Positions 2,326 to 17,117 of a stretch of 33,517 nt of DNA are shown piece after piece. The number at the start of each line of letters is the position of its first letter. Position 1 is the stretch's first letter. The translations under genes and the position numbers were made by a program. The notes beneath the pieces were generated by a model. That model did no database searches. It had not been told where the DNA came from and saw only the letters and a list, made by a program, of their open reading frames with translations. Source of the DNA: Candidatus Baltobacteraceae bacterium (GTDB lineage: Bacteria; Vulcanimicrobiota; Vulcanimicrobiia; Vulcanimicrobiales; Vulcanimicrobiaceae); contig DATBTN010000022.1 of the NCBI GenBank assembly GCA_036559195.1, positions 1 through 33,517 on the forward strand. The letters run 5' to 3'.

Positions 2326-3909
2326 ATGAATCCGCGCTGCGTCATTGCCGAATCGTTCGCGGCCGAAGGCCAAGACGTACTGCGCGCACGCGGGATCGAC
2401 GTGCATTCGTGCGTCGGCGTTTCGCGGGACGAACTCGTCGCCGCGCTGGCGCACGCTCAAGCTCTCATCGTGCGTTCGGAGACGCGGGTGGACCGCGCGC
2501 TGTTGTCGGCGGGGCCCGGCCTGCGCGTGGTGGCGCGCGCGGGCGTCGGCGTCGACGCGATCGACGTGGATGCGGCGACCGAGGCGGGCATCGTCGTCGT
2601 CAACACCCCGTCGGCCAACACGATCGCCGCAACCGAACTAACCTTCGCGATGATGCTGGCGGCCGTGCGCCACATCCCCGACGCGACGGCGACGCTGCGC
2701 GCCGGCCGTTGGGAACGCGCGCAATTCGTGGGCAACGAACTGTGCGGTAAGACGCTCGGCATCGTCGGTCTGGGGCGCATCGGCGCGGGCGTGGCCGTAC
2801 GCGCGCGCGCGTTCGGAATGACGGTTCTCGCGTGCGATCCGTATATCGGTTCGGCGCGCGCGCAAGCGCACGACGCCGAGCTCGTCGATCTCGACGCGCT
2901 TTTCGCTCGCGCCGATATCGTAACGCTGCACGTTCCGTTGACCGAGCAGACCAAAGCGCTCGTGAATGCCGCACGGCTCGCGCGGATGCGTCCCCACGCG
3001 ATTCTCGTTAACTGCGCGCGCGGCGGCGTCGTCGACGAACGGGCGCTGCTCGCCGCGCTCGACGCCGGCACGATCGCGGGGGCGGCGCTCGACGTTGTCG
3101 CACACGAACCGCCCGCGGCCGATTCGCCGGGTTCGCGCTTGCACCGTCATCCGCGCGTCATCGCGACGCCGCACTTGGGCGGTTCGACGCACGAAGCGTT
3201 GCGGCGCATCGCCGTGGAACTCGCAACCGACGTGGCCGACGTGCTGACCGGTCGGCCCCCGCAGGGCGCCGTCAACGCTCCCGCGCCGAGCGGCGCCGAC
3301 GCGCAACAGGTGCGTCGCTACGTCGATATCGCCTATCGTCTGGGAGTCGTACTCCCGCAACTCGTCGACGGATCGCTGCAGCGTCCGGTCACGCTCGTCG
3401 CTTGCGGCGATCTCGCGCAGAGCGACCCGGCACCGCTGCGCGCCGCGCTGCTCTCGGGGCTCTTGCAAACGACGACCGAGCGGCGCGTTTCCATCGTCAA
3501 CGCCGAATCCATCGCCGCCGAGATCGGACTCGTGCTCGACGTCGTCGCCGACGAGGCGCGCGAGCCCTATGCGGCGTCGCTCGCCGTCGCATCGGGTCCG
3601 CATCGTCTGATCGGCACCGCCCTTCACAACGGCCCGCGCATCGTCGAGATCGACGGGTACGACGTGGATGCGATCCTGGAGGGCGTGCTCATCGTGACTC
3701 GCCATCGCGACGTGCCCGGTGTCGTTGGGCGCGTCGGCATGATCCTCGGCGACGCGAACGTCAATATCTCGACGATGCAAGTGGGCCGCAGCGCGCGCGG
3801 CGGCGATGCGCTCATGACGCTCGGAGTCGACCGGCCGTTAGATCGCGAGACGCTCGATGCGATCGGCGCGATCGCCGGAATGCGCCGCGTCGTAAGCATC
3901 GTGGTGTAG
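2326..3909 (+). CDS. serA: D-3-phosphoglycerate dehydrogenase
   Basis: SerA oxidises 3-phosphoglycerate to 3-phosphohydroxypyruvate with NAD, the first step of serine synthesis. The 527-residue protein is the long form: substrate and NAD domains (GLGRIG near residue 148; NCARGGVVDE with the catalytic Arg near 232; Glu in AHEPP near 260; catalytic His in PHLGGS near 283), an intervening ASB domain, and a C-terminal ACT domain (from about 455, VPGVVGRVG) that usually binds serine for feedback inhibition. I chose ATG 2326 because MNPRCVIAESF starts the fold; the ATG at 2275 would add 17 unstructured residues and lacks a Shine-Dalgarno sequence. It is divergent to the ALDH-like gene and 2 nt ahead of a histidine phosphatase. 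Confidence 0.95.
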   Translation: MNPRCVIAESFAAEGQDVLRARGIDVHSCVGVSRDELVAALAHAQALIVRSETRVDRALLSAGPGLRVVARAGVGVDAIDVDAATEAGIVVVNTPSANTIAATELTFAMMLAAVRHIPDATATLRAGRWERAQFVGNELCGKTLGIVGLGRIGAGVAVRARAFGMTVLACDPYIGSARAQAHDAELVDLDALFARADIVTLHVPLTEQTKALVNAARLARMRPHAILVNCARGGVVDERALLAALDAGTIAGAALDVVAHEPPAADSPGSRLHRHPRVIATPHLGGSTHEALRRIAVELATDVADVLTGRPPQGAVNAPAPSGADAQQVRRYVDIAYRLGVVLPQLVDGSLQRPVTLVACGDLAQSDPAPLRAALLSGLLQTTTERRVSIVNAESIAAEIGLVLDVVADEAREPYAASLAVASGPHRLIGTALHNGPRIVEIDGYDVDAILEGVLIVTRHRDVPGVVGRVGMILGDANVNISTMQVGRSARGGDALMTLGVDRPLDRETLDAIGAIAGMRRVVSIVV

Positions 3910-3911
3910 CG

Positions 3912-4541
3912 GTGGCAATCGTTCGCGTCGCTCGCCATGGGGAATCGACCTGGAACCGCTTGGGCCGCTACCAGGGCCGGCGCGATGCCGATCTTTCGCC
4001 GCTGGGTCGCGTCCAGTCGCAGTCGCTCGCGGCCGCGCTCCACGACGCGGGAATCGAGCGAATCGTCACGAGCCCGCTGCAGCGCGCGGTCCTCACGGCG
4101 CGCCCGTTGGCGGAGTTGCTCGGCGTGACCCCCGAGCTCGATGCGGCCGCGATCGAGATCGCGCATGGCACCTGGGAGGGCCGTTATCGCGAGGAAATCG
4201 CCGAAAACGACCCCGAGCGCTACCACCTCTGGCGCGAGCGCCCCGAGCTCGTCGCCTTCGAATTCGGGGAGACCGTGCTCGAGGTGTTGGAGCGCTGGCG
4301 GCGATTCGCGGCGCGCTTCGATGCGGGCCGCGACGCGCTGATCGTTACCCACGATGTCGTCGTGCGGCTGGCCATCCTCGACTCCACCGGGCGCGGCGCC
4401 GCGCAGCTCTGGCAGCCGCGCGTCGTCAACGCGGGCTACGCCGAGTTTCGCGTCGAGGGCGAGCGCTGGGAACTGTTGCGCGAGTGCGTGGACGGCCACC
4501 TGGCCGGCTGCACGGCCGATCTGCCCGGGCAAGCGCTGTGA
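3912..4541 (+). CDS. Histidine phosphatase family protein (candidate phosphoserine phosphatase)
   Basis: This 209-residue protein belongs to the phosphoglycerate-mutase-like histidine phosphatases. RHGESTWN at residues 8-15 holds the phospho-accepting His9; HGTWEG and VTHDVVVR supply the conserved Glu and second His. It starts with GTG two bases after the serA stop, so it is probably co-translated. Metal-independent phosphoserine phosphatases of this superfamily are known in organisms without SerB. Being coupled to serA, this protein is a reasonable candidate for that step. The alternatives are a cofactor-dependent mutase or a broad-specificity phosphatase. The family call is secure; the substrate is inference from position only. 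Confidence 0.85.
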   Translation: MAIVRVARHGESTWNRLGRYQGRRDADLSPLGRVQSQSLAAALHDAGIERIVTSPLQRAVLTARPLAELLGVTPELDAAAIEIAHGTWEGRYREEIAENDPERYHLWRERPELVAFEFGETVLEVLERWRRFAARFDAGRDALIVTHDVVVRLAILDSTGRGAAQLWQPRVVNAGYAEFRVEGERWELLRECVDGHLAGCTADLPGQAL

Positions 4542-4583
4542 AGTGGGTATACCTCTAGCCAATCTACTCGTTTAACCGGAGGC

Positions 4584-5147
4584 ATGGTGGCTAAAGCAAC
4601 CCCGTTTTTATCCGACGTGAAGTCGCTGCGCGCGCGCGCACGCAAAGATATGATGAAAGGCGCCGTCACGAGCGACTACAAGGGCGACGTGAAGAAGGCG
4701 GTCGATATTCTCAATTCGGCGCTGGCTACGGAGATCGTCTGCGTGCTGCGCTACAAGCGTCACTACTACATGGCGCAGGGCATTCACAAAGAAGCGGTGG
4801 CGGCCGAATTTCTCCAGCACGCAAACGAAGAGCAGGCGCACGCCGACCTCATCGCCGAGCGGATCACGCAACTCGGCGGGGCGCCCGACCTCAACCCGCA
4901 GGGACTTGCGACGCGCAGTCATTCGCAATATATCGAAGGCGATAATCTGATCGACATGATCAAAGAGAATCTGGTCGCCGAACGCATCGCCATCGAATCG
5001 TATCGCGAGATTATCCGGTATTTCGGTGACAACGATACGACCACGCGCCGTATGATGGAGGGCATTCTCGCGATGGAAGAAGAGCACGCGAGCGATATGA
5101 CCGATCTGCTCGAGGCGCACGGCACGGAGGCCGGGAGCAAGCATTAG
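4584..5147 (+). CDS. Ferritin-like/bacterioferritin-like diiron protein
   Basis: The 187-residue four-helix protein has a complete ferritin diiron set: Glu50 (ATEIVC), Glu83 and His86 (EEQAH), Glu133 (VAERI), Glu165 and His168 (EEEHAS). The 33-residue spacing of the first two ligands matches bacterioferritin. The Met that follows the second Glu in bacterioferritin and binds haem is Gln84 here, so a haem-free ferritin is likely. It would oxidise and store iron or protect DNA from peroxide. A GGAGG lies only 1 nt before ATG 4584 and 4 nt before the in-frame GTG 4587; the GTG may be the true start. The 3' end overlaps the next gene by a few bases. No iron-regulator site is evident in the 42-base gap upstream. 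Confidence 0.88.
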   Translation: MVAKATPFLSDVKSLRARARKDMMKGAVTSDYKGDVKKAVDILNSALATEIVCVLRYKRHYYMAQGIHKEAVAAEFLQHANEEQAHADLIAERITQLGGAPDLNPQGLATRSHSQYIEGDNLIDMIKENLVAERIAIESYREIIRYFGDNDTTTRRMMEGILAMEEEHASDMTDLLEAHGTEAGSKH

Positions 5148-8957: not shown

Positions 8958-10232
8958 CTACGCGCTCACGAGGCGAAACTTCGCGTACATGTACGGATAG
9001 TCGGCGTAGAACCAGTTGCGGAAGCTCCGCCGCACGAGTTCGCGTGCCGTAACGGGCGATGCGCCCTTCATCACGTAGTGGCGCCCGTCGAAGAAGTCGG
9101 CGCTGTATTGCGGATACGAAGCCATCGGTTCGAATCCCGGGAACGGTGCGAAGACCGTGCTCGTCCACTCCCAGCCGTTGCCGATGAGATCGTGCACGTC
9201 CCAGGCACTCGCTCCGGCCGGATTCGCGTCGACGGGTTCGGGGTCGAACCGATTGAAATCGAAGTTCCCGCGCTCGGCCGTTGGAGTTTCGTCACCCCAC
9301 GGAAACGGACGCTCCGCTCCGCTCGGCGTTCCGAAGGCCGCGCGGTGGTATTCGGCCTCCGACGGCAAGCGCGAGCCTTTCCAAGCGGCGTAGGCCTGCG
9401 CCTGATCGTGCGTCGCGTACACCGGCCAGGACCGCGGCAACGGCAGCGTTTCGAAGACGCCGAGCAGATACCAATCGCCGTCGCGTTCGATCCAGAACGG
9501 CGGCGGCGGCCCGCCGGCGCGTACGAATTCCAGATAGTCCGCGTTCGTCACCGGATACCGCTCGATCCCGAACGCGGGAACGCGGACTTCGTGCCGGCCG
9601 AACTCGTTATCCCACCCGAACGGAATGCTTCCCGGGTCCGCACCGAGCGTCGCCGTTCCGCCGGCAATCGCGACGAGGTCGTTTCGCGGCGGCGCGGGAT
9701 CGTGATGATCTTGCGCGATGCGTCCCTTGAGATCGGGGCCGAGCCGATGGATGATGTAGAGCAGCGTTTCGTGATGCATCGGCTCGTGCTCGAGTGCGGT
9801 GTAGATGGCTTGTCCGCGCGCCAGGCGCGGCGCGCGATCGTCGTGCAGCACCGCCGTTTCGATCGCCTCGAGAACGCGATCGTCGCAGGCGCGGCCGAAG
9901 GCTTCGATTGCGGCCTTCTGCGGCCAATCGCGCCGTTCGTGGCGGTTCGCATCGGTCAGCGAGCCGGGATCGATGCCGCGTTCGAAGAGCTTCTCGAGGA
10001 GCGGATCGACCGGCGCCTCGCCGAGCGCGCGTTCGTTAAACGTGAGGAAGCTAAATGCCGGGATATGGCCTTCGTAAAACGCGAACGGGTGCCGCAGCGG
10101 AATCGGACGGGCGTAGTATGCGGCCGGATCGATCAGCGCGAAGATCTGCGCGGACCGGGCGCGATTGCGCCGGTACCAGTCGGCAAGAAGCGGGCGATCG
10201 AGAGCCGGGGTTGCCGGTGCCAGGGTCTGCAT
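8958..10232 (-). CDS. EgtB/SenA/OvoA-type non-haem iron sulfoxide synthase
   Basis: The 424-residue protein joins an N-terminal DinB-like helical domain to a C-terminal FGE-sulfatase (SUMF1) domain, the layout of enzymes that couple a thiol or selenol to histidine or hercynine using O2. The iron ligands are present: His56 in GHIP and the HX3HXE motif HEPMHHE (His149, His153). The FGE part shows WDVHDLIGNGWEWT and, at the end, RRSFRNWFYADYPYMYAKFR. No histidine methyltransferase (EgtD), selenosugar synthase or lyase is adjacent, so ergothioneine, selenoneine and ovothiol roles cannot be separated. I use ATG 10232, which has AAGGTGAGG upstream; GTG 10241 is possible. It sits inside a tight operon with ALDH and the lipoprotein gene. 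Confidence 0.85.
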   Translation of the reverse strand: MQTLAPATPALDRPLLADWYRRNRARSAQIFALIDPAAYYARPIPLRHPFAFYEGHIPAFSFLTFNERALGEAPVDPLLEKLFERGIDPGSLTDANRHERRDWPQKAAIEAFGRACDDRVLEAIETAVLHDDRAPRLARGQAIYTALEHEPMHHETLLYIIHRLGPDLKGRIAQDHHDPAPPRNDLVAIAGGTATLGADPGSIPFGWDNEFGRHEVRVPAFGIERYPVTNADYLEFVRAGGPPPPFWIERDGDWYLLGVFETLPLPRSWPVYATHDQAQAYAAWKGSRLPSEAEYHRAAFGTPSGAERPFPWGDETPTAERGNFDFNRFDPEPVDANPAGASAWDVHDLIGNGWEWTSTVFAPFPGFEPMASYPQYSADFFDGRHYVMKGASPVTARELVRRSFRNWFYADYPYMYAKFRLVSA

Positions 10233-10242
10233 GTTCCTCACC

Positions 10243-11676
10243 TTACCCTAAATATTCAGCCAATCCGTGAACGCCGCCCTCGCGGCCGAATCCCGACTCG
10301 CGGTAGCCGCCGAAGGGCGACGACGGGTCGAACTGGTTGAAGGTGTTACACCATACCACACCCGCCCGCAAGTGTTGCGCGACGAACATGTTTTTGCTCC
10401 CTTTGTCGGTCCAGATACCGGCCGAGAGTCCGTACGGCGTGTTGTTGGCTTTTTCGATCGCCTCCTCGGGCGTTCGGAAGGTGATGATCGAAAGAACGGG
10501 CCCGAAGATCTCCTCGCGCGCGATGCGGTGCGATTGCGACACGTTGGTGAAAAACGAGGCGGGGAAATAATATCCGCGCTCGGGTATCGTGCACGACTGC
10601 TGCACGAGCGTGGCGCCCGCTTCGACGCCGCTGCGCACCAGTTCGTTTATACGTTCGAGCTGGATCTTCGAATTGATCGCGCCGATGTCAGTGTTTTTAT
10701 CGAGCGGATTGCCGAGCCGCAGCGTCTCGAGGCGTTCGGTGAGACGCACGACGATTTCGTCGTGTGCGCTCTCTTGCACGAGCAGACGCGAACCGGCGCA
10801 GCAGACGTGCCCCTGATTAAAGTAGATCCCGTTGACCACGCCTTCGATGGCCTGATCCATCGGCGCGTCGGCAAACACGATGTGCGCGGCTTTACCGCCG
10901 AGTTCGAGCGTGAGACGTTTTGCGGTGCCCGCGACCGAACGCGCGATCGCCTTGCCGACGTCGGTCGATCCCGTAAACGCGATCTTATCGATATCGGGAT
11001 GATCGACGAGCGCCGCACCGGTGGCGCCGTCGCCGGTTACCACGTTGACGACGCCGGGCGGTAAATCGCACTCGCGCACGATCGCCGCGAGTGCGAGCGC
11101 GGTCAGCGGCGTCGTTTCGGCCGGCTTGAGGACGACCGTATTTCCGCATGCGAGGGCGGGCGCGATCTTCCAGGCGGCCATCAGCAGCGGAAAGTTCCAA
11201 GGCACGATCTGCCCGGCGACGCCGATCGGACGCGGAATCTCGCCGGCCCGCATCGCCCACTCGAGCTTATCGGCCCAGCCCGCGTAGTAGAAGAAGTGCG
11301 CCGCCGCGAGCGGCACGTCGAAGTCGCGCGACTCTTTGATCGGCTTGCCGCCGTCCATCGTTTCGAGCACCGCGAGTTCGCGCGAACGCTCCGTAATGGC
11401 GCGCGCGATGCGATAGATGTACTTGGCGCGATCGGCCGGACGCAACTTGCGCCAGTACTTGTCATAGGCTTTACGCGCCGCGCGAACCGCGCGATCTACG
11501 TCGGCGGCGTCGCCGTAGGCGATCTCGGCCAGATGCGCTTCGTTGGACGGATCGATCGTCGCGAAGTAGCGCCCGCTCGCGGGCGCGCTCCACTGACCGT
11601 TGATGAAGAGCCCGTACCGTTCGCGGATCGCGACGGCGGTCGTTTCCGGCGCCGGCGCGTAATCGAAGATCGCCAT
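10243..11676 (-). CDS. NAD(P)-dependent aldehyde dehydrogenase
   Basis: This 477-residue ALDH oxidises an aldehyde to the acid. All catalytic parts are visible: VPWNFP (Asn161), VLKPAE (Lys184), FTGSTDVGK, LELGGK (Glu258) and HVCCAGSR, whose Cys292 aligns with the catalytic Cys. EEIFGPV and the closing GGYRESGFGREGG are typical. It starts 3 nt after the deoC stop with GAAGGA upstream, so the two are coupled. The likely job is to oxidise acetaldehyde or a related aldehyde released by DeoC. The short dead ALDH homologue at 1394-2269 may be its partner, as the second domain is in ALDH16, but that is inference. Confidence 0.92.
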   Translation of the reverse strand: MAIFDYAPAPETTAVAIRERYGLFINGQWSAPASGRYFATIDPSNEAHLAEIAYGDAADVDRAVRAARKAYDKYWRKLRPADRAKYIYRIARAITERSRELAVLETMDGGKPIKESRDFDVPLAAAHFFYYAGWADKLEWAMRAGEIPRPIGVAGQIVPWNFPLLMAAWKIAPALACGNTVVLKPAETTPLTALALAAIVRECDLPPGVVNVVTGDGATGAALVDHPDIDKIAFTGSTDVGKAIARSVAGTAKRLTLELGGKAAHIVFADAPMDQAIEGVVNGIYFNQGHVCCAGSRLLVQESAHDEIVVRLTERLETLRLGNPLDKNTDIGAINSKIQLERINELVRSGVEAGATLVQQSCTIPERGYYFPASFFTNVSQSHRIAREEIFGPVLSIITFRTPEEAIEKANNTPYGLSAGIWTDKGSKNMFVAQHLRAGVVWCNTFNQFDPSSPFGGYRESGFGREGGVHGLAEYLG

Positions 11677-11679
11677 CGT

Positions 11680-12561
11680 TTAGTCCTTCGGGAAGTAATC
11701 GGGGCCGGCGTAGCTTCCGGTCTGTTCTTTCTCGTACTGCATGAGCAAATCGTCGAGCAGCGAACTCGCGCCGATGCGAAAGAGATCGGGCGTCAACCAC
11801 GCCGCGCCGAGCGTCTCTTTGACGACGACCAGATACGTCATCGCTTGTTTCGTCGTGCGGACGCCGCCGGCAACCTTGAGTCCCGCGCGACGGCCCGTGC
11901 GGCGCGCGTAGTCCCGAATCGCCTCGCACATGACGACGGCGACCGGAAACGTGGCGCTGGTTCCGGCCTTGCCGGTGGAGGTTTTAATCACATCGGCGCC
12001 GGCTTCGAGTGCGAGGTCGCTCGCGCGGCGCACGTTGTCGTAACTGACGAGTTCGCCCGTTTCGAGGATGACCTTGAGATGGATCGTGCCGCAAACGCGT
12101 TTGACGGCGACGATCTCGTCGTAGACCTGCCGTTCTTTGCCCGAAAGAAACGCGCCGCGGTCGATCACCATGTCGATCTCGTCGGCGCCGGATGCGATCG
12201 CGGCTTGCGTGTCGGCGAGGCGCACCTCAAGCGACGAGAGGCCGCTTGGAAATGCGGTCGCGACCGACGCGACCTTCACCGTGCTGCCGCGTAACGCGTC
12301 CTTCGCAACCGCGACTAGGCTCGGATAGACGCAGACCGCCGCGACGCTCGGAACGTCGGGCAGATGCGGCGCCGGCGCGATCGCCTTCGCGCAGAGCGAT
12401 CGAACGCGGCCTTCGGAATCTTTGCCTTCGAGCGTGGTGAGATCCATGCATCCGATCGCCAGACGAATGCCGGCAACTTTGGTGCTGGTTTTGATCGAAC
12501 GCTTCGCAAGTGCCCCTGCGCGCGTCTCGAGCATGACGGCGTCGACGGTCGCGATGGTCAT
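11680..12561 (-). CDS. deoC: Deoxyribose-phosphate aldolase
   Basis: DeoC cleaves 2-deoxyribose-5-phosphate to glyceraldehyde-3-phosphate and acetaldehyde in deoxynucleoside breakdown. The 293-residue protein has the Schiff-base Lys193 in VIKTSTGK, Lys229 in GLKVAGGVRT, Asp130 in DEIDMVID and the KVILETG strand, all as in the E. coli enzyme. It carries roughly 40 extra N-terminal residues relative to the E. coli protein. The ATG lies 6 nt after the hppD stop, and the stop is 3 nt before the ALDH start. No deoxynucleoside phosphorylase or phosphopentomutase gene is in the window, so the substrate supply must be encoded elsewhere. Confidence 0.95.
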   Translation of the reverse strand: MTIATVDAVMLETRAGALAKRSIKTSTKVAGIRLAIGCMDLTTLEGKDSEGRVRSLCAKAIAPAPHLPDVPSVAAVCVYPSLVAVAKDALRGSTVKVASVATAFPSGLSSLEVRLADTQAAIASGADEIDMVIDRGAFLSGKERQVYDEIVAVKRVCGTIHLKVILETGELVSYDNVRRASDLALEAGADVIKTSTGKAGTSATFPVAVVMCEAIRDYARRTGRRAGLKVAGGVRTTKQAMTYLVVVKETLGAAWLTPDLFRIGASSLLDDLLMQYEKEQTGSYAGPDYFPKD

Positions 12562-12567
12562 GTGCGT

Positions 12568-13707
12568 TTAGAGCGTCCCGCGCTTTTCCTGTTCTTTCTC
12601 GATCGAGACGAAGAGCGCTTTGAAGTTGCCCTTTCCGAAGCTCAGACTGCCCTTGCGTTGGATGATCTCGAAAAATACCGTCGGACGATCCTGCAGCGGT
12701 TTGGTGAAGATCTGCAGCATGTAGCCGAGGTCGTCGCGATCGACGAGGATGCGTAACTCGCGCAGCATCTGCATCGCCTCGTCGATGTGACCGACGCGCG
12801 CTTCGAGATCGTCGTAATAACTATCGGGCGTGTCGAGGAACTCGACCCCGTTGGTCTTGAGCGCTCGAATCGTCGCGATGATATCGTCGGTGCGGATCGC
12901 GACGTGTTGCACGCCCGCGCCGCGATAGAAGTCCAGATACTCCTCGATCTGGGATTTCTTCTTGCCTTGCGCGGGTTCGTTGATCGGGAACTTCACGCGG
13001 TGTTCGGCGTCGGTCATGACTTTCGAACGCAGCGCCGTGTACTCGGTCGAGATGTCCTTATCGTCGAACGAGACGAGCTGCGAAAAGCCGAAGACCTTCG
13101 CGTAGAAGTCGCCCCAGGGGTCCATCTCTCCCCAGCCGACGTTTCCGACGCAATGATCGATGAACTGCAGACCGGGCTTCTGCGCGAACGCAACCGTCCC
13201 GTGCTGCGCCACGAACCCCGGCATGAATATCCCGCGGTAGCCATCGCGCTGGATGAAGCTATGCACCGTTTCGCCATAGGTGGCGATCGTTGCTTTGACG
13301 ATTCGCCCGTTCGCGTCCGATGACACCGTTGGCTCGAGTACCGCTTTGGCGCCGCCGGCGATCGCCTGGTCGAACGCGGCGCGCGCATCCTTCACGAGAA
13401 TGGCGACATCCTTAACACCGTCGCCGTGAAGCGCCACGTGTTTCGCGATGGCGTCGTCCGGACGCAAACTCGAGGTCAGCGCGAAGCGCAGCTTATTTTG
13501 AACCAAAACGTAGGAGGCGCGGTCTTGAACGCCGGTCTCGGGGCCCGCGTAGGCGACCCGGTCGAAGCCGAACGCCGAACAGTAATAGTGCGCGGCCTGT
13601 TTGGCGTTGCCGACGTAGAACTCGAGGTAGTCCCAATCGATCTGGGCCAGCGGGTTGGTCTTCGGCGAACTCATCGTTGTCATAGCGGGATGCACTTGGC
13701 GCACCAC
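12568..13707 (-). CDS. hppD: 4-hydroxyphenylpyruvate dioxygenase
   Basis: HppD turns 4-hydroxyphenylpyruvate into homogentisate, the second step of tyrosine breakdown. The two-barrel VOC fold is clear, with YVGNAKQAAHYY early and the Fe(II) ligands in FIDHCVGNV, VQHVAIRT and FFEIIQRKG. ATG codons at 13683 and 13674 have no Shine-Dalgarno sequence. GTG 13707 has GGAGGAG 9 nt upstream and is in frame, so I prefer it; the protein is then 379 residues. The start lies 18 bases from the divergent gene at 13726, so any promoter for one gene must lie inside the other. It leads a run with deoC, ALDH, the EgtB-like gene and the lipoprotein gene. Confidence 0.93.
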   Translation of the reverse strand: MVRQVHPAMTTMSSPKTNPLAQIDWDYLEFYVGNAKQAAHYYCSAFGFDRVAYAGPETGVQDRASYVLVQNKLRFALTSSLRPDDAIAKHVALHGDGVKDVAILVKDARAAFDQAIAGGAKAVLEPTVSSDANGRIVKATIATYGETVHSFIQRDGYRGIFMPGFVAQHGTVAFAQKPGLQFIDHCVGNVGWGEMDPWGDFYAKVFGFSQLVSFDDKDISTEYTALRSKVMTDAEHRVKFPINEPAQGKKKSQIEEYLDFYRGAGVQHVAIRTDDIIATIRALKTNGVEFLDTPDSYYDDLEARVGHIDEAMQMLRELRILVDRDDLGYMLQIFTKPLQDRPTVFFEIIQRKGSLSFGKGNFKALFVSIEKEQEKRGTL

Positions 13708-13725: not shown

Positions 13726-14682
13726 ATGACCACTTCCTCGGGGCAACTCCCAGCCGCCACGGCGGCGTTTTCGGCCTTGATCGACTACGCCGGACTCTTT
13801 CCACCGGCGAAACTCGCCATGACCGAGGCGCTGCGCGAGTACGCCGAGGCGCGCCGCGCGCCGCACGCGTGGACGATCGGGCGCTTCATCGTGCCCGCCA
13901 GCCGCATGGGCGAACTGCTCGCGGCGCTCGACCAAACGCAGCCCGGCGAGGCGGCCCTGCCGGCGAGCGTCATCGTCGATGCCGAACCGGAACCGCGGGC
14001 GTGGCTGGCGAGCGCGCGGGCGGCGCTCGCCGGCATCGCCGCGCTGCGCCGCGATGGGCGCATCGCGATCGAAGCGCTCGAAGTGCCGCTTCCGCCGCTG
14101 GTCACGCGCCGCGAGACGTACGATGCCCCGGTCGGACAGTTTGCCATGCTCCTCGAAGGCGCCGCCTTGCGCGACCTGCCCGTCTATCTCGAGATTCCAC
14201 GCAACGAGCGATTCGCGGAGTTGCTCTCCGGCGCGCTTTTCGCGTTCGCGCGACACCGGCTGCGCGCGAAGGTGCGATGCGGCGGCATCACTGCCGATGC
14301 CGTTCCAGCGCCGGCGGAGCTGGCGGCGTTCGTCCATGCGGCCCATGCCGAACGTGTGGCGTTCAAAGCGACGGCCGGACTGCATCACCCCGTGCGCCAC
14401 TCCAACGACGCGAGCGGGTTCGTCATGCACGGGTTTCTCAATCTTCTCGGCGCCGCGGTCTTCGCCCGAGACGGAGCCGATACGGCGGACCTGACGGCGA
14501 TTCTCGAAGAAGACGATCCGGCGGCGTTTGGGATCGACGGCGCCGGCTTGCGCGTTGACGGCCGGAGCGCCGCGCTCTCGCAGATCGAGCTAGCGCGTCG
14601 CGAGTCGTTCGTGAGTTACGGCAGCTGCAGCTTGAGCGAGCCGATCGGCGATCTCATCGCGCTCGGCATGCTCGAAGGATAG
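13726..14682 (+). CDS. Conserved protein of unknown function next to fumarylacetoacetase
   Basis: I recognise no characterised family in this 318-residue protein. It starts MTTSSGQLPAATAAFSALID, has alternating strand and helix character suggesting a TIM-barrel-like fold, and contains motifs that look like an active site: LRAKVRCGGI near residue 183, VAFKATAGLHHPVRH near 210, and SYGSCSLSEP near the end. I recall similar KATAGLHHP proteins in other soil bacteria without an assigned role. It is divergent from hppD by 18 bases and 4 bases ahead of the fahA start, so it is probably co-expressed with the homogentisate pathway. No Shine-Dalgarno sequence precedes ATG 13726, so it may be translated from a leaderless or near-leaderless mRNA. 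An in-frame ATG at 13690 is less likely. Confidence 0.8.
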   Translation: MTTSSGQLPAATAAFSALIDYAGLFPPAKLAMTEALREYAEARRAPHAWTIGRFIVPASRMGELLAALDQTQPGEAALPASVIVDAEPEPRAWLASARAALAGIAALRRDGRIAIEALEVPLPPLVTRRETYDAPVGQFAMLLEGAALRDLPVYLEIPRNERFAELLSGALFAFARHRLRAKVRCGGITADAVPAPAELAAFVHAAHAERVAFKATAGLHHPVRHSNDASGFVMHGFLNLLGAAVFARDGADTADLTAILEEDDPAAFGIDGAGLRVDGRSAALSQIELARRESFVSYGSCSLSEPIGDLIALGMLEG

Positions 14683-14686
14683 CGTC

Positions 14687-15961
14687 ATCGATACGATCGA
14701 CCAAACGCTGACGTCGTGGATCGACGTCGCCTCCGACTCCGACTTTCCGATCCAGAATCTGCCCTACGGCGTCTTCAACCGCGAGGGCGCGCCGCACGTC
14801 GGCGTGGCGATCGGCGATCGCATTCTCGACCTGCACGCGTGCGCGAACGCCGGCCTCCTCGACGGCGCGGCCGCGCGCGATCTGCTGACGGCGCCGACGC
14901 TCAACGCACTGGCCGGCGCCGGACGGCCGGCGTGGGCGGCCTTGCGCGCGCGCTTGATCGAGCTGTTGCGCGCGGATGCGACGCAACTGCAGCGACACAA
15001 CGTCGACCGGCTCTTGGTCGCGCGGCGGGATGCGGCGATGCGCCTGCCCGTCGCCGTCGGAGACTACGTCGACTTTTACTCCTCGCTCGAGCATGCGACC
15101 AATCTCGGCAAAATTTTTCGCCCCGACGGCGATCCGCTGATGCCGAATTGGCGCTGGATCCCGATCGGATACCATGGCCGCTCGAGTACGATCGTCGTCG
15201 ACGGTACGCCGGTCGTGCGCCCGAGCGGTCAACGCAAACCGCCCGACGTGCAGACGCCTACGCTAGGCGCGTCGCGATCGCTCGATATCGAACTCGAAAT
15301 CGGCTTTATCACCGGGCCGGGAAACGCGCTCGGCACGCCGATCCCGATCGACGACGCGCGCGAGCACATCTTCGGTTTGGTGATCGTCAACGATTGGAGC
15401 GCGCGCGACATTCAAGCCTGGGAATATCAGCCGCTCGGGCCATTCTTGGGCAAATCGTTTGCGACGTCGATTTCGCCGTGGATCGTTACGCTCGACGCGC
15501 TCGAACCGTTTCGACTGGCCGGCCCCGCGCAAACTCCGGCGCCGTTACCGTATCTGCAGAACGCCCAAGCCTGGAACTACGACATCGTCTTGCGCGTCCT
15601 GCTCGAAAGCGAGCGCATGCGCCGCGAGGGCGACGCGCCCGCGCCGATCTCGCGCTCGAACTTTAAGTACATGTACTGGAATATGGCGCAGCAACTGGCG
15701 CACGCGACGGTGAACGGCACGGCGACGCGGCCCGGCGACCTCTACGCCTCGGGCACGATCTCAGGCCCCACTCCCGATAGCTACGGAAGTTTCATCGAGT
15801 TAACGTGGCGCGGCAGCAAGCCGCTGAACTTACCCAACGGCGAAGTGCGAACGTTTCTCGACGACGGCGATCGCGTAACGCTCGCCGCCGCATGCGAGCG
15901 CGCCGACGCGCGGCGCATCGGCTTCGGCTCGGTCAGCGGGATGATTCTGCCGGCGCGGTAG
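14687..15961 (+). CDS. fahA: Fumarylacetoacetase, probable ATC start codon
   Basis: This enzyme hydrolyses fumarylacetoacetate to fumarate and acetoacetate, the last step of tyrosine breakdown. The conserved N-terminus SDFPIQNLPYGVF begins around base 14738, followed by VGVAIGDRILDL, GYHGRSSTIV, DIELEIGFI and VNDWSARDIQAWEYQPLGPF, which carry the metal and catalytic residues. No ATG, GTG or TTG lies in frame upstream of SDFPIQNLPYGVF; the first is GTG 14804, which would delete that segment. ATC 14687 has GAAGGA 7 nt upstream, 4 bases after the stop of the preceding gene, and gives a protein of 424 residues, normal for the family. GTC 14684 and CTG 14708 are weaker alternatives. The 3' end overlaps hmgA tail-to-tail by 29 bases. 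Confidence 0.92.
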   Translation: MDTIDQTLTSWIDVASDSDFPIQNLPYGVFNREGAPHVGVAIGDRILDLHACANAGLLDGAAARDLLTAPTLNALAGAGRPAWAALRARLIELLRADATQLQRHNVDRLLVARRDAAMRLPVAVGDYVDFYSSLEHATNLGKIFRPDGDPLMPNWRWIPIGYHGRSSTIVVDGTPVVRPSGQRKPPDVQTPTLGASRSLDIELEIGFITGPGNALGTPIPIDDAREHIFGLVIVNDWSARDIQAWEYQPLGPFLGKSFATSISPWIVTLDALEPFRLAGPAQTPAPLPYLQNAQAWNYDIVLRVLLESERMRREGDAPAPISRSNFKYMYWNMAQQLAHATVNGTATRPGDLYASGTISGPTPDSYGSFIELTWRGSKPLNLPNGEVRTFLDDGDRVTLAAACERADARRIGFGSVSGMILPAR

Positions 15962-17117
15962 CCGGTTCTTCGATCCAGGATCGGAAGTAGAGCGGATCTT
16001 CAACGTCGAGCGCTCGTTGCGCGATCTGCAGCGGCTTGAACGTATCGAGCATCACGGCGATTTCATCGGTCGATGTTTTGCCGAGGCTCGCCTCGACGGC
16101 GCCGGGCTGCGGGCCGTGCGGCGCGCCGGCGGCGTGCAGGGTGATCGACCCTTCCTCGACGCCGCGGCGGCTCATGAAATTGCCGCTTACGTAGTAAAGC
16201 ACTTCGTCGCAGTCGACGCTCGAGTGATTGTACGGCACGGGAATCGCCAGCGGATGATAATCGAACATGCGCGGCACGAAGGCGCAGAATGCGGCGCCGG
16301 GCGCCTCGAACGTCGCGTGCGCCGGCGGCGGCTGGTGCAGCTTCCCGGTGATCGGTGCGAATTCGTCGAGGTTGAACGCGTAGGGATAACAGAATCCGTC
16401 CCACCCGATCGCGTCGCAAGGATGATTCCGTACCGTGTAGATCGCATCGCGCCCGGCATTGGTCACGCGAACCTCGAACTCGCCGCGCTCGTCGTGCGGC
16501 GCCTGCAGGGAAGGGGGCCGGAAATCGCGCTCGTAGTATGGCGCGTGCTCTTCCATTTGCCCGAACTCGTTGCGGTACTTGCGCGGAATCTTGATCTGCC
16601 CGGAGCTTTCGTAGATTAACAGGCGAGTCGGCGACGTCGGAGCGAGCTTCCACGTCGTTCCCGCCGGCAGAACGAGATAGTCGTGCGCGCGATAGACGAT
16701 GTTGCCGAACGGGGTCTCGATCGTCCCGTCGCCACGGTGCACGAAGAGCAGTTCGTCGCCGCCCACGTTGCGATAGAAGTACTCCATCGCACGGTCCACG
16801 TCGGCAATCGAGAGGACGATATCGGCGTTGCCGAGCAACGGAACGCGTGCGTCGACGGCATCGCCGGGCGCGTGAAGCTTCTGCGTTTTAACGTGCCGAT
16901 TGCGCAGCGGCTGGTTGGGGAGAAACTGCGGTACGGACCGGTTCCAATCGCGCACGTCGAGCGTTGCGGTCGGCGGCCGAAGATGATAGAGCAGCGAGTA
17001 GACGCTATCGAAGCCCTTGGTCGAGAAGAGTTCTTCGGCGTAAAGACCGCCATCCGGCCGGCGAAACTGAATGTGCCGTTTCGCGGGAAGTTCGCCCGCG
17101 CGCACGTAGAATGGCAT
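15933..17117 (-). CDS. hmgA: Homogentisate 1,2-dioxygenase
   Basis: HmgA opens the homogentisate ring to maleylacetoacetate using Fe(II) and O2. The 394-residue cupin protein has the iron-binding segment FDYHPLAIPVPYNHSSVDCDE (His and Glu ligands) followed by AAGAPHGPQPG with the third His, as in the family. It is somewhat shorter than the human enzyme, which is common for bacterial members. ATG 17117 has AAGAGGAG at good spacing and gives MPFYVRAGELP. It lies 5 nt after the CDGSH gene, and its last 29 bases overlap the end of fahA on the other strand. With hppD and fahA it completes most of the tyrosine route; a maleylacetoacetate isomerase is not seen. Confidence 0.93.
   Translation of the reverse strand: MPFYVRAGELPAKRHIQFRRPDGGLYAEELFSTKGFDSVYSLLYHLRPPTATLDVRDWNRSVPQFLPNQPLRNRHVKTQKLHAPGDAVDARVPLLGNADIVLSIADVDRAMEYFYRNVGGDELLFVHRGDGTIETPFGNIVYRAHDYLVLPAGTTWKLAPTSPTRLLIYESSGQIKIPRKYRNEFGQMEEHAPYYERDFRPPSLQAPHDERGEFEVRVTNAGRDAIYTVRNHPCDAIGWDGFCYPYAFNLDEFAPITGKLHQPPPAHATFEAPGAAFCAFVPRMFDYHPLAIPVPYNHSSVDCDEVLYYVSGNFMSRRGVEEGSITLHAAGAPHGPQPGAVEASLGKTSTDEIAVMLDTFKPLQIAQRALDVEDPLYFRSWIEEPATAPAESSR

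Follow-up and report, generated by a model that had tools for sequence, protein, structure and literature searches.

A protein of 318 amino acids encoded directly upstream of fahA in a Candidatus Eremiobacterota genome (G000:C22) is, on balance, probably a maleylacetoacetate isomerase that needs no cofactor and takes the place of the unrelated MaiA in bacteria lacking glutathione. Its open reading frame lies at 13726–14682 on the forward strand of the window, the whole 33,517-nucleotide stretch of DNA that was analysed, and has an ATG start, 318 codons and a TAG stop ending at 14682. The gene linkage, the missing MaiA and glutathione synthetase, the TIM-barrel model and the invariant polar residues were all computed, and from these we infer the reaction and its mechanism. 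A preliminary description of the window had proposed a step or repair function in tyrosine breakdown, which was right in kind given the fahA linkage, the MaiA absence and the enzyme-type barrel; the present evidence narrows it to one inferred step, most likely maleylacetoacetate isomerisation. This would most likely be a known reaction carried out by an unrelated protein, and an enzyme family new to the homogentisate pathway.

Between homogentisate 1,2-dioxygenase (HGD) and fumarylacetoacetase (FahA) the pathway needs the isomerisation of maleylacetoacetate, for which proteobacteria use the glutathione-dependent MaiA. Neighbouring fahA and maiA genes were seen in Sphingobium and Acinetobacter. 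Actinobacteria and bacilli also use the homogentisate pathway, mostly without glutathione, and their isomerase step has had no assigned gene because the textbook isomerase needs this thiol, which is mostly missing there. In the phylum surveyed here, MaiA was absent throughout, with none over the cut-off in 149 genomes; glutathione synthetase was over the cut-off in none of the 60 genomes checked, and no GST_N domain was found in the window's own genome. Sub-cut-off GST- or MaiA-like proteins were commoner in FahA genomes without the family gene (4/8) than in those with it (7/91; p = 0.005), an excess that hints weakly at replacement. In Rhodococcus globerulus, a 2025 proteome study reported HmgA and HmgB, with no HmgC in the available part of the paper (PMC11889516). 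The literature searched, mostly open-access and so weak as evidence of novelty, contained no paper naming the family and no description of a glutathione-independent maleylacetoacetate isomerase.

A profile search of the 149 phylum genomes, with FahA counted at more than 70 bits, found the family gene in 92 and FahA in 99. Both were present in 91 genomes, FahA alone in eight and neither in 49; the only genome with the family gene and no FahA (G040) is a fragmented assembly in which the gene itself is cut. FahA was thus encoded by 91 of the 92 carriers compared with eight of the 57 non-carriers (Fisher p about 1e-29, kinship ignored). In 88 of the 92 carrier genomes the family gene is followed immediately by fahA in the same orientation, a position beside fahA that is also a trait of MaiA; the median gap between match edges is 32 nt. 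A second copy in G038 and the gene in G039 lie about 1.4 kb before fahA, the former in the order family gene, canonical hmgA, fahA (L094), whereas in G014 and G021 the family gene is beside hppD and canonical hmgA and fahA are near each other elsewhere. Where a canonical HGD takes the place of the short divergent class, as in L094, the family gene still stays linked to the pathway. An HGD of either class was present in all 33 carriers of the 60-genome set, that of G039 being inferred from a matching layout and a 24% match, and a distant phylum member (G132) has a full operon in pathway order, hppD-HGD-gene-fahA (L129).

Outside the phylum, relatives were recovered by tblastn of plasmid records, and all 13 inspected loci have fahA directly downstream of the family gene. 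The order HGD-gene-fahA was found in Streptomyces, Pseudonocardia and Rhodococcus, and in Nonomuraea as read by HMM; Tsukamurella has hppD-HGD-gene-fahA and Priestia hppD-gene-fahA-hisC-HGD, while in Kovacikia hppD and HGD are divergent from gene-fahA. In two plasmid-borne Streptomyces clusters gene-fahA is present but no HGD is annotated in the vicinity. Since the genomes counted are related and the Fisher test ignores kinship, more weight attaches to this adjacency recurring from phylum to phylum. The homologues are therefore not scattered away from aromatic catabolism genes, the outcome that had been named as fatal to the early reading, but are tied to fahA and otherwise to hmgA or hppD.

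In the window itself the gene lies, as first described, between a divergent hppD (12568–13683, reverse strand; TIGR01263, 458 bits), encoding 4-hydroxyphenylpyruvate dioxygenase, and fahA (14687–15961, forward strand; TIGR01266, 541 bits, over the cut-off; Pfam FAA_hydrolase). The reported gap of four bases to fahA depends on a fahA start at ATC 14687: no in-frame ATG, GTG or TTG was found at 14687–14803, before FahA residue 40, and in fahA relatives an ATG or GTG stands at the position matching 14687 or close to it. The gene thus probably begins with the rare ATC, unless the sequence has a base error. Convergent with fahA is a short-type HGD (15933–17117, reverse strand; HgmA_N, TIGR01015 scoring 50 bits where the cut-off is 511), which is conserved in 31 of 60 relatives; it is of the short divergent class, and other phylum members have the canonical class instead.

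Other genes also accompany hppD. In many carriers hppD is followed downstream by a deoxyribose breakdown pair, deoC and an aldehyde dehydrogenase gene (10243–12561, reverse strand, in the window); the window's true deoC, at 11680–12561, is a gene separate from the one at 13726–14682. The pair is missing at other carriers' loci, where hppD is directly followed by the gene for a sulfoxide-synthase-like protein with DinB_2 and FGE-sulfatase domains (8958–10241, reverse strand, in the window). This protein scored 218, 197 and 189 bits against the OvoA, SenA and EgtB models, all below cut-off, and its product may be an uncommon histidine compound bearing a thiol or selenol. Its gene adjoins hppD repeatedly in carriers, though only in part of the loci.

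The open reading frame is more than a chance one, since 36 relatives inside the phylum align over the whole length at 35–56% identity with 34 invariant columns, which bears out the conservation first supposed. The protein is likewise uncharacterised as stated: searches of Pfam and NCBIfam returned nothing at E<=1, and neither sequence nor profile searches gave a credible match in the PDB, those to an ER membrane complex subunit, Sly1 and ribosomal S20 having been rejected as chance. Relatives in Priestia and at actinobacterial loci are still publicly annotated as hypothetical proteins, and the viral contigs searched held no relative. The tblastn relatives, from Streptomyces, Priestia, Pseudonocardia, Rhodococcus, Nonomuraea, Tsukamurella and the cyanobacterium Kovacikia, mostly share 20–40% pairwise identity. 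The 39-sequence alignment spans at least four bacterial phyla. Invariant across it are D20, A22, P26, P27, E119, E156, K182, R184, G186, K214, T216–H220, G236, R291, G299, C301, S302 and P306.

All three motifs picked out in the preliminary description were found, namely KVRCGGI at residues 182–188, FKATAGLHHPVRH at 213–225 and SYGSCSLSEP at 297–306. The first (14269–14289, forward strand) lies at the end of predicted strand 6 and includes the invariant K182, R184 and G186. Its Cys185 is C, T or A in the family, being threonine in Priestia, Kovacikia, Streptomyces, Pseudonocardia and Rhodococcus and alanine in one relative, and was rejected as a general catalytic residue. The second (14362–14400, forward strand), which contains K214, H220 and H221, lies at the end of strand 7, with K214 and T216–H220 invariant. 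The core of the third, GSCSLSEP from G299 to P306 (14620–14643, forward strand), is at the end of strand 8 and carries Cys301, the only cysteine invariant across the 39 sequences.

An AlphaFold2 model built with nine homologues (mean pLDDT 89.2, pTM 0.89) has the element order of an eight-stranded alpha/beta (TIM) barrel, with strands at 19–21, 51–57, 78–83, 113–121, 153–156, 180–184, 213–216 and 295–300. The nearest natural folds in the PDB are those of deoxyribose-phosphate aldolases, with E-values of about 1e-4 to 1e-3, 12–14% identity and TM-scores, by query, of about 0.45–0.5; the predicted fold is TIM-like and not close to any solved member. In the model, invariant residues are placed at or just after strand ends, namely D20 (strand 1), E119 (4), E156 (5), K182 and R184 (6), K214 and H220 (7) and C301 (8), and it is at such strand ends that the active sites of barrel enzymes sit. 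The protein had been called probably enzymatic, and the predicted enzyme-type barrel is in line with this; the fold search brought up no fold of known unrelated role, and a viral structure library gave nothing at E<=0.001.

In the proposed scheme, HGD makes maleylacetoacetate, the cis isomer, which the 13726–14682 protein would convert to the trans isomer fumarylacetoacetate, to be cleaved by FahA, the product of the next gene. Cys301, at the end of strand 8, would attack the activated double bond, which is conjugated to the diketone, in a reversible addition; the resulting single bond would rotate, and loss of the thiolate would then yield the trans product. R184, with K182 and K214, may hold the two carboxylates and the enolate, and H220 or E119 and E156 could move protons. 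Such chemistry would parallel that of the glutathione thiol in MaiA, the thiol here coming from the protein. For the same reaction, the main alternative chemistry would have K182 or K214 form a Schiff base, giving a dienamine.

Comparison with known systems sets the family apart from each. MaiA, of the GST zeta class (TIGR01262), shares the proposed reaction, the slot next to fahA and the proposed nucleophilic thiol, but belongs to the glutathione transferases and works with glutathione, whereas the present protein would supply its own thiol in Cys301; it matched neither TIGR01262 nor any GST family (Pfam and NCBIfam, E<=1), and its modelled barrel is not the thioredoxin-like GST fold. The mycothiol-dependent maleylpyruvate isomerase catalyses cis-trans isomerisation of a maleyl-ketoacid without glutathione, using a DinB four-helix fold, a metal and mycothiol. 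This enzyme (PF11716) resembles the proposed one in serving bacteria without glutathione but is a helical bundle, unlike the barrel modelled here, which has no Pfam match. In maleate cis-trans isomerase, of the Asp/Glu racemase fold, the double bond is attacked by a cysteine of the enzyme, a possible mechanistic parallel to the chemistry proposed for Cys301; its fold is different, and no match to that family was returned by Pfam or NCBIfam.

Several exceptions bear on the isomerase reading. Two genomes, G007 (99% completeness) and G023 (85%), have hppD, HGD and fahA and lack both the family gene and MaiA, and the profile search of the five FahA genomes without the family gene in the first set found no divergent copies. 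The isomerase step may accordingly be dispensable or done otherwise; in these two genomes chemical isomerisation with other thiols may be fast enough, or FahA may accept the cis isomer. In Nocardia farcinica HGD and fahA are adjacent with no family gene between them. Nor is the split by thiol a strict one: several carriers in family f14 encode numerous GST-like proteins as well, and glutathione is made in the phylum to which Kovacikia belongs. Because of these cases, together with the G005 copy discussed below and the Streptomyces clusters without HGD, our confidence in the isomerase reading is moderate.

A side or repair reaction, in which the protein removes or recycles a reactive by-product (such as a succinyl- or maleyl-acetoacetate side product, or non-isomerised diketone) and performs no isomerase step, is rather unlikely. 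It would show the same gene linkage and would suit a step dispensable in a few genomes such as G007 and G023; the nearest solved folds are, moreover, aldolases that form Schiff bases with carbonyls, and the family has two invariant lysines on neighbouring strands. However, an accessory function would hardly be expected in as many as 91 of 99 FahA genomes, the pathway of the carriers would be left without an isomerase, and the slot between HGD and FahA is occupied in several actinobacterial groups.

The same fold resemblance could point to an aldolase-like C–C lyase or hydrolase that acts directly on maleylacetoacetate or helps FahA, making isomerisation unneeded. DERA carries K167 and K201 on strands 6 and 7, and the present barrel, nearest to class I aldolases such as DERA, has the invariant K182 and K214 on the same strands as predicted by the model. 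The surrounding motifs differ from the KTSTG and KxxGG of DeoC, identity is about 13%, the family is strictly linked to homogentisate genes, and there was no match to PF01791 or TIGR00126. Homology with DeoC was rejected, the likeness being at fold level only, as the profile comparison failed (hhalign probability 0.2%). With a full-length FahA over the curated cut-off encoded alongside, a second hydrolase would be redundant, and this reading is improbable.

It is more doubtful still that the protein is a non-catalytic partner of FahA, serving its assembly, stability or channelling. The family gene does track fahA more strictly than it does HGD or hppD, and the copy in G005 (3881–4765 of locus L088) keeps its place before fahA with an intact reading frame after losing most active-site-like residues: R184, T216, H220, C301 and S302 are changed or lost, as are the RCGG, TAGLHH and GSCS motifs. 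That copy is a degenerate relative and possibly a pseudoenzyme. In the family at large, by contrast, about eight charged or nucleophilic strand-end residues are invariant over at least four phyla, a catalytic signature; the gene is away from fahA in G014 and G021, and the proteobacterial fahA loci inspected have no such neighbour.

Mycothiol-dependent maleylpyruvate isomerases do exist, and genes annotated with a maleylpyruvate isomerase N-terminal domain lie near some Streptomyces copies. A 2024 paper lists one such enzyme among Streptomyces tyrosine-pathway genes, with no maleylacetoacetate isomerase gene named in the available part of the text (PMC11012174). That the isomerase is such a DinB-type thiol-dependent protein, or the sulfoxide-synthase-like one at 8958–10241, with the 13726–14682 protein doing something else, is nonetheless hardly credible, as no such gene fills the slot beside fahA in the other carriers inspected and the sulfoxide-synthase-like gene adjoins hppD at only some loci.

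Homogentisate is the route by which phenylalanine, tyrosine and many hydroxyphenylacetates are degraded. For the family as a whole the case is evenly poised that this unnamed TIM-barrel protein is the missing maleylacetoacetate isomerase, free of a thiol cofactor, of glutathione-lacking bacteria in the Actinomycetota, Bacillota and Eremiobacterota and in some Cyanobacteriota. Such an enzyme would have been invented independently, with the catalytic thiol shifted from glutathione to a cysteine of its own, or with a lysine Schiff base serving the cis-trans isomerisation. If the isomerase reading is true, a gap in the pathway would be filled and many genomes could be correctly annotated, and the family would illustrate by what means a thiol cofactor was replaced in the evolution of a cis-trans isomerase.
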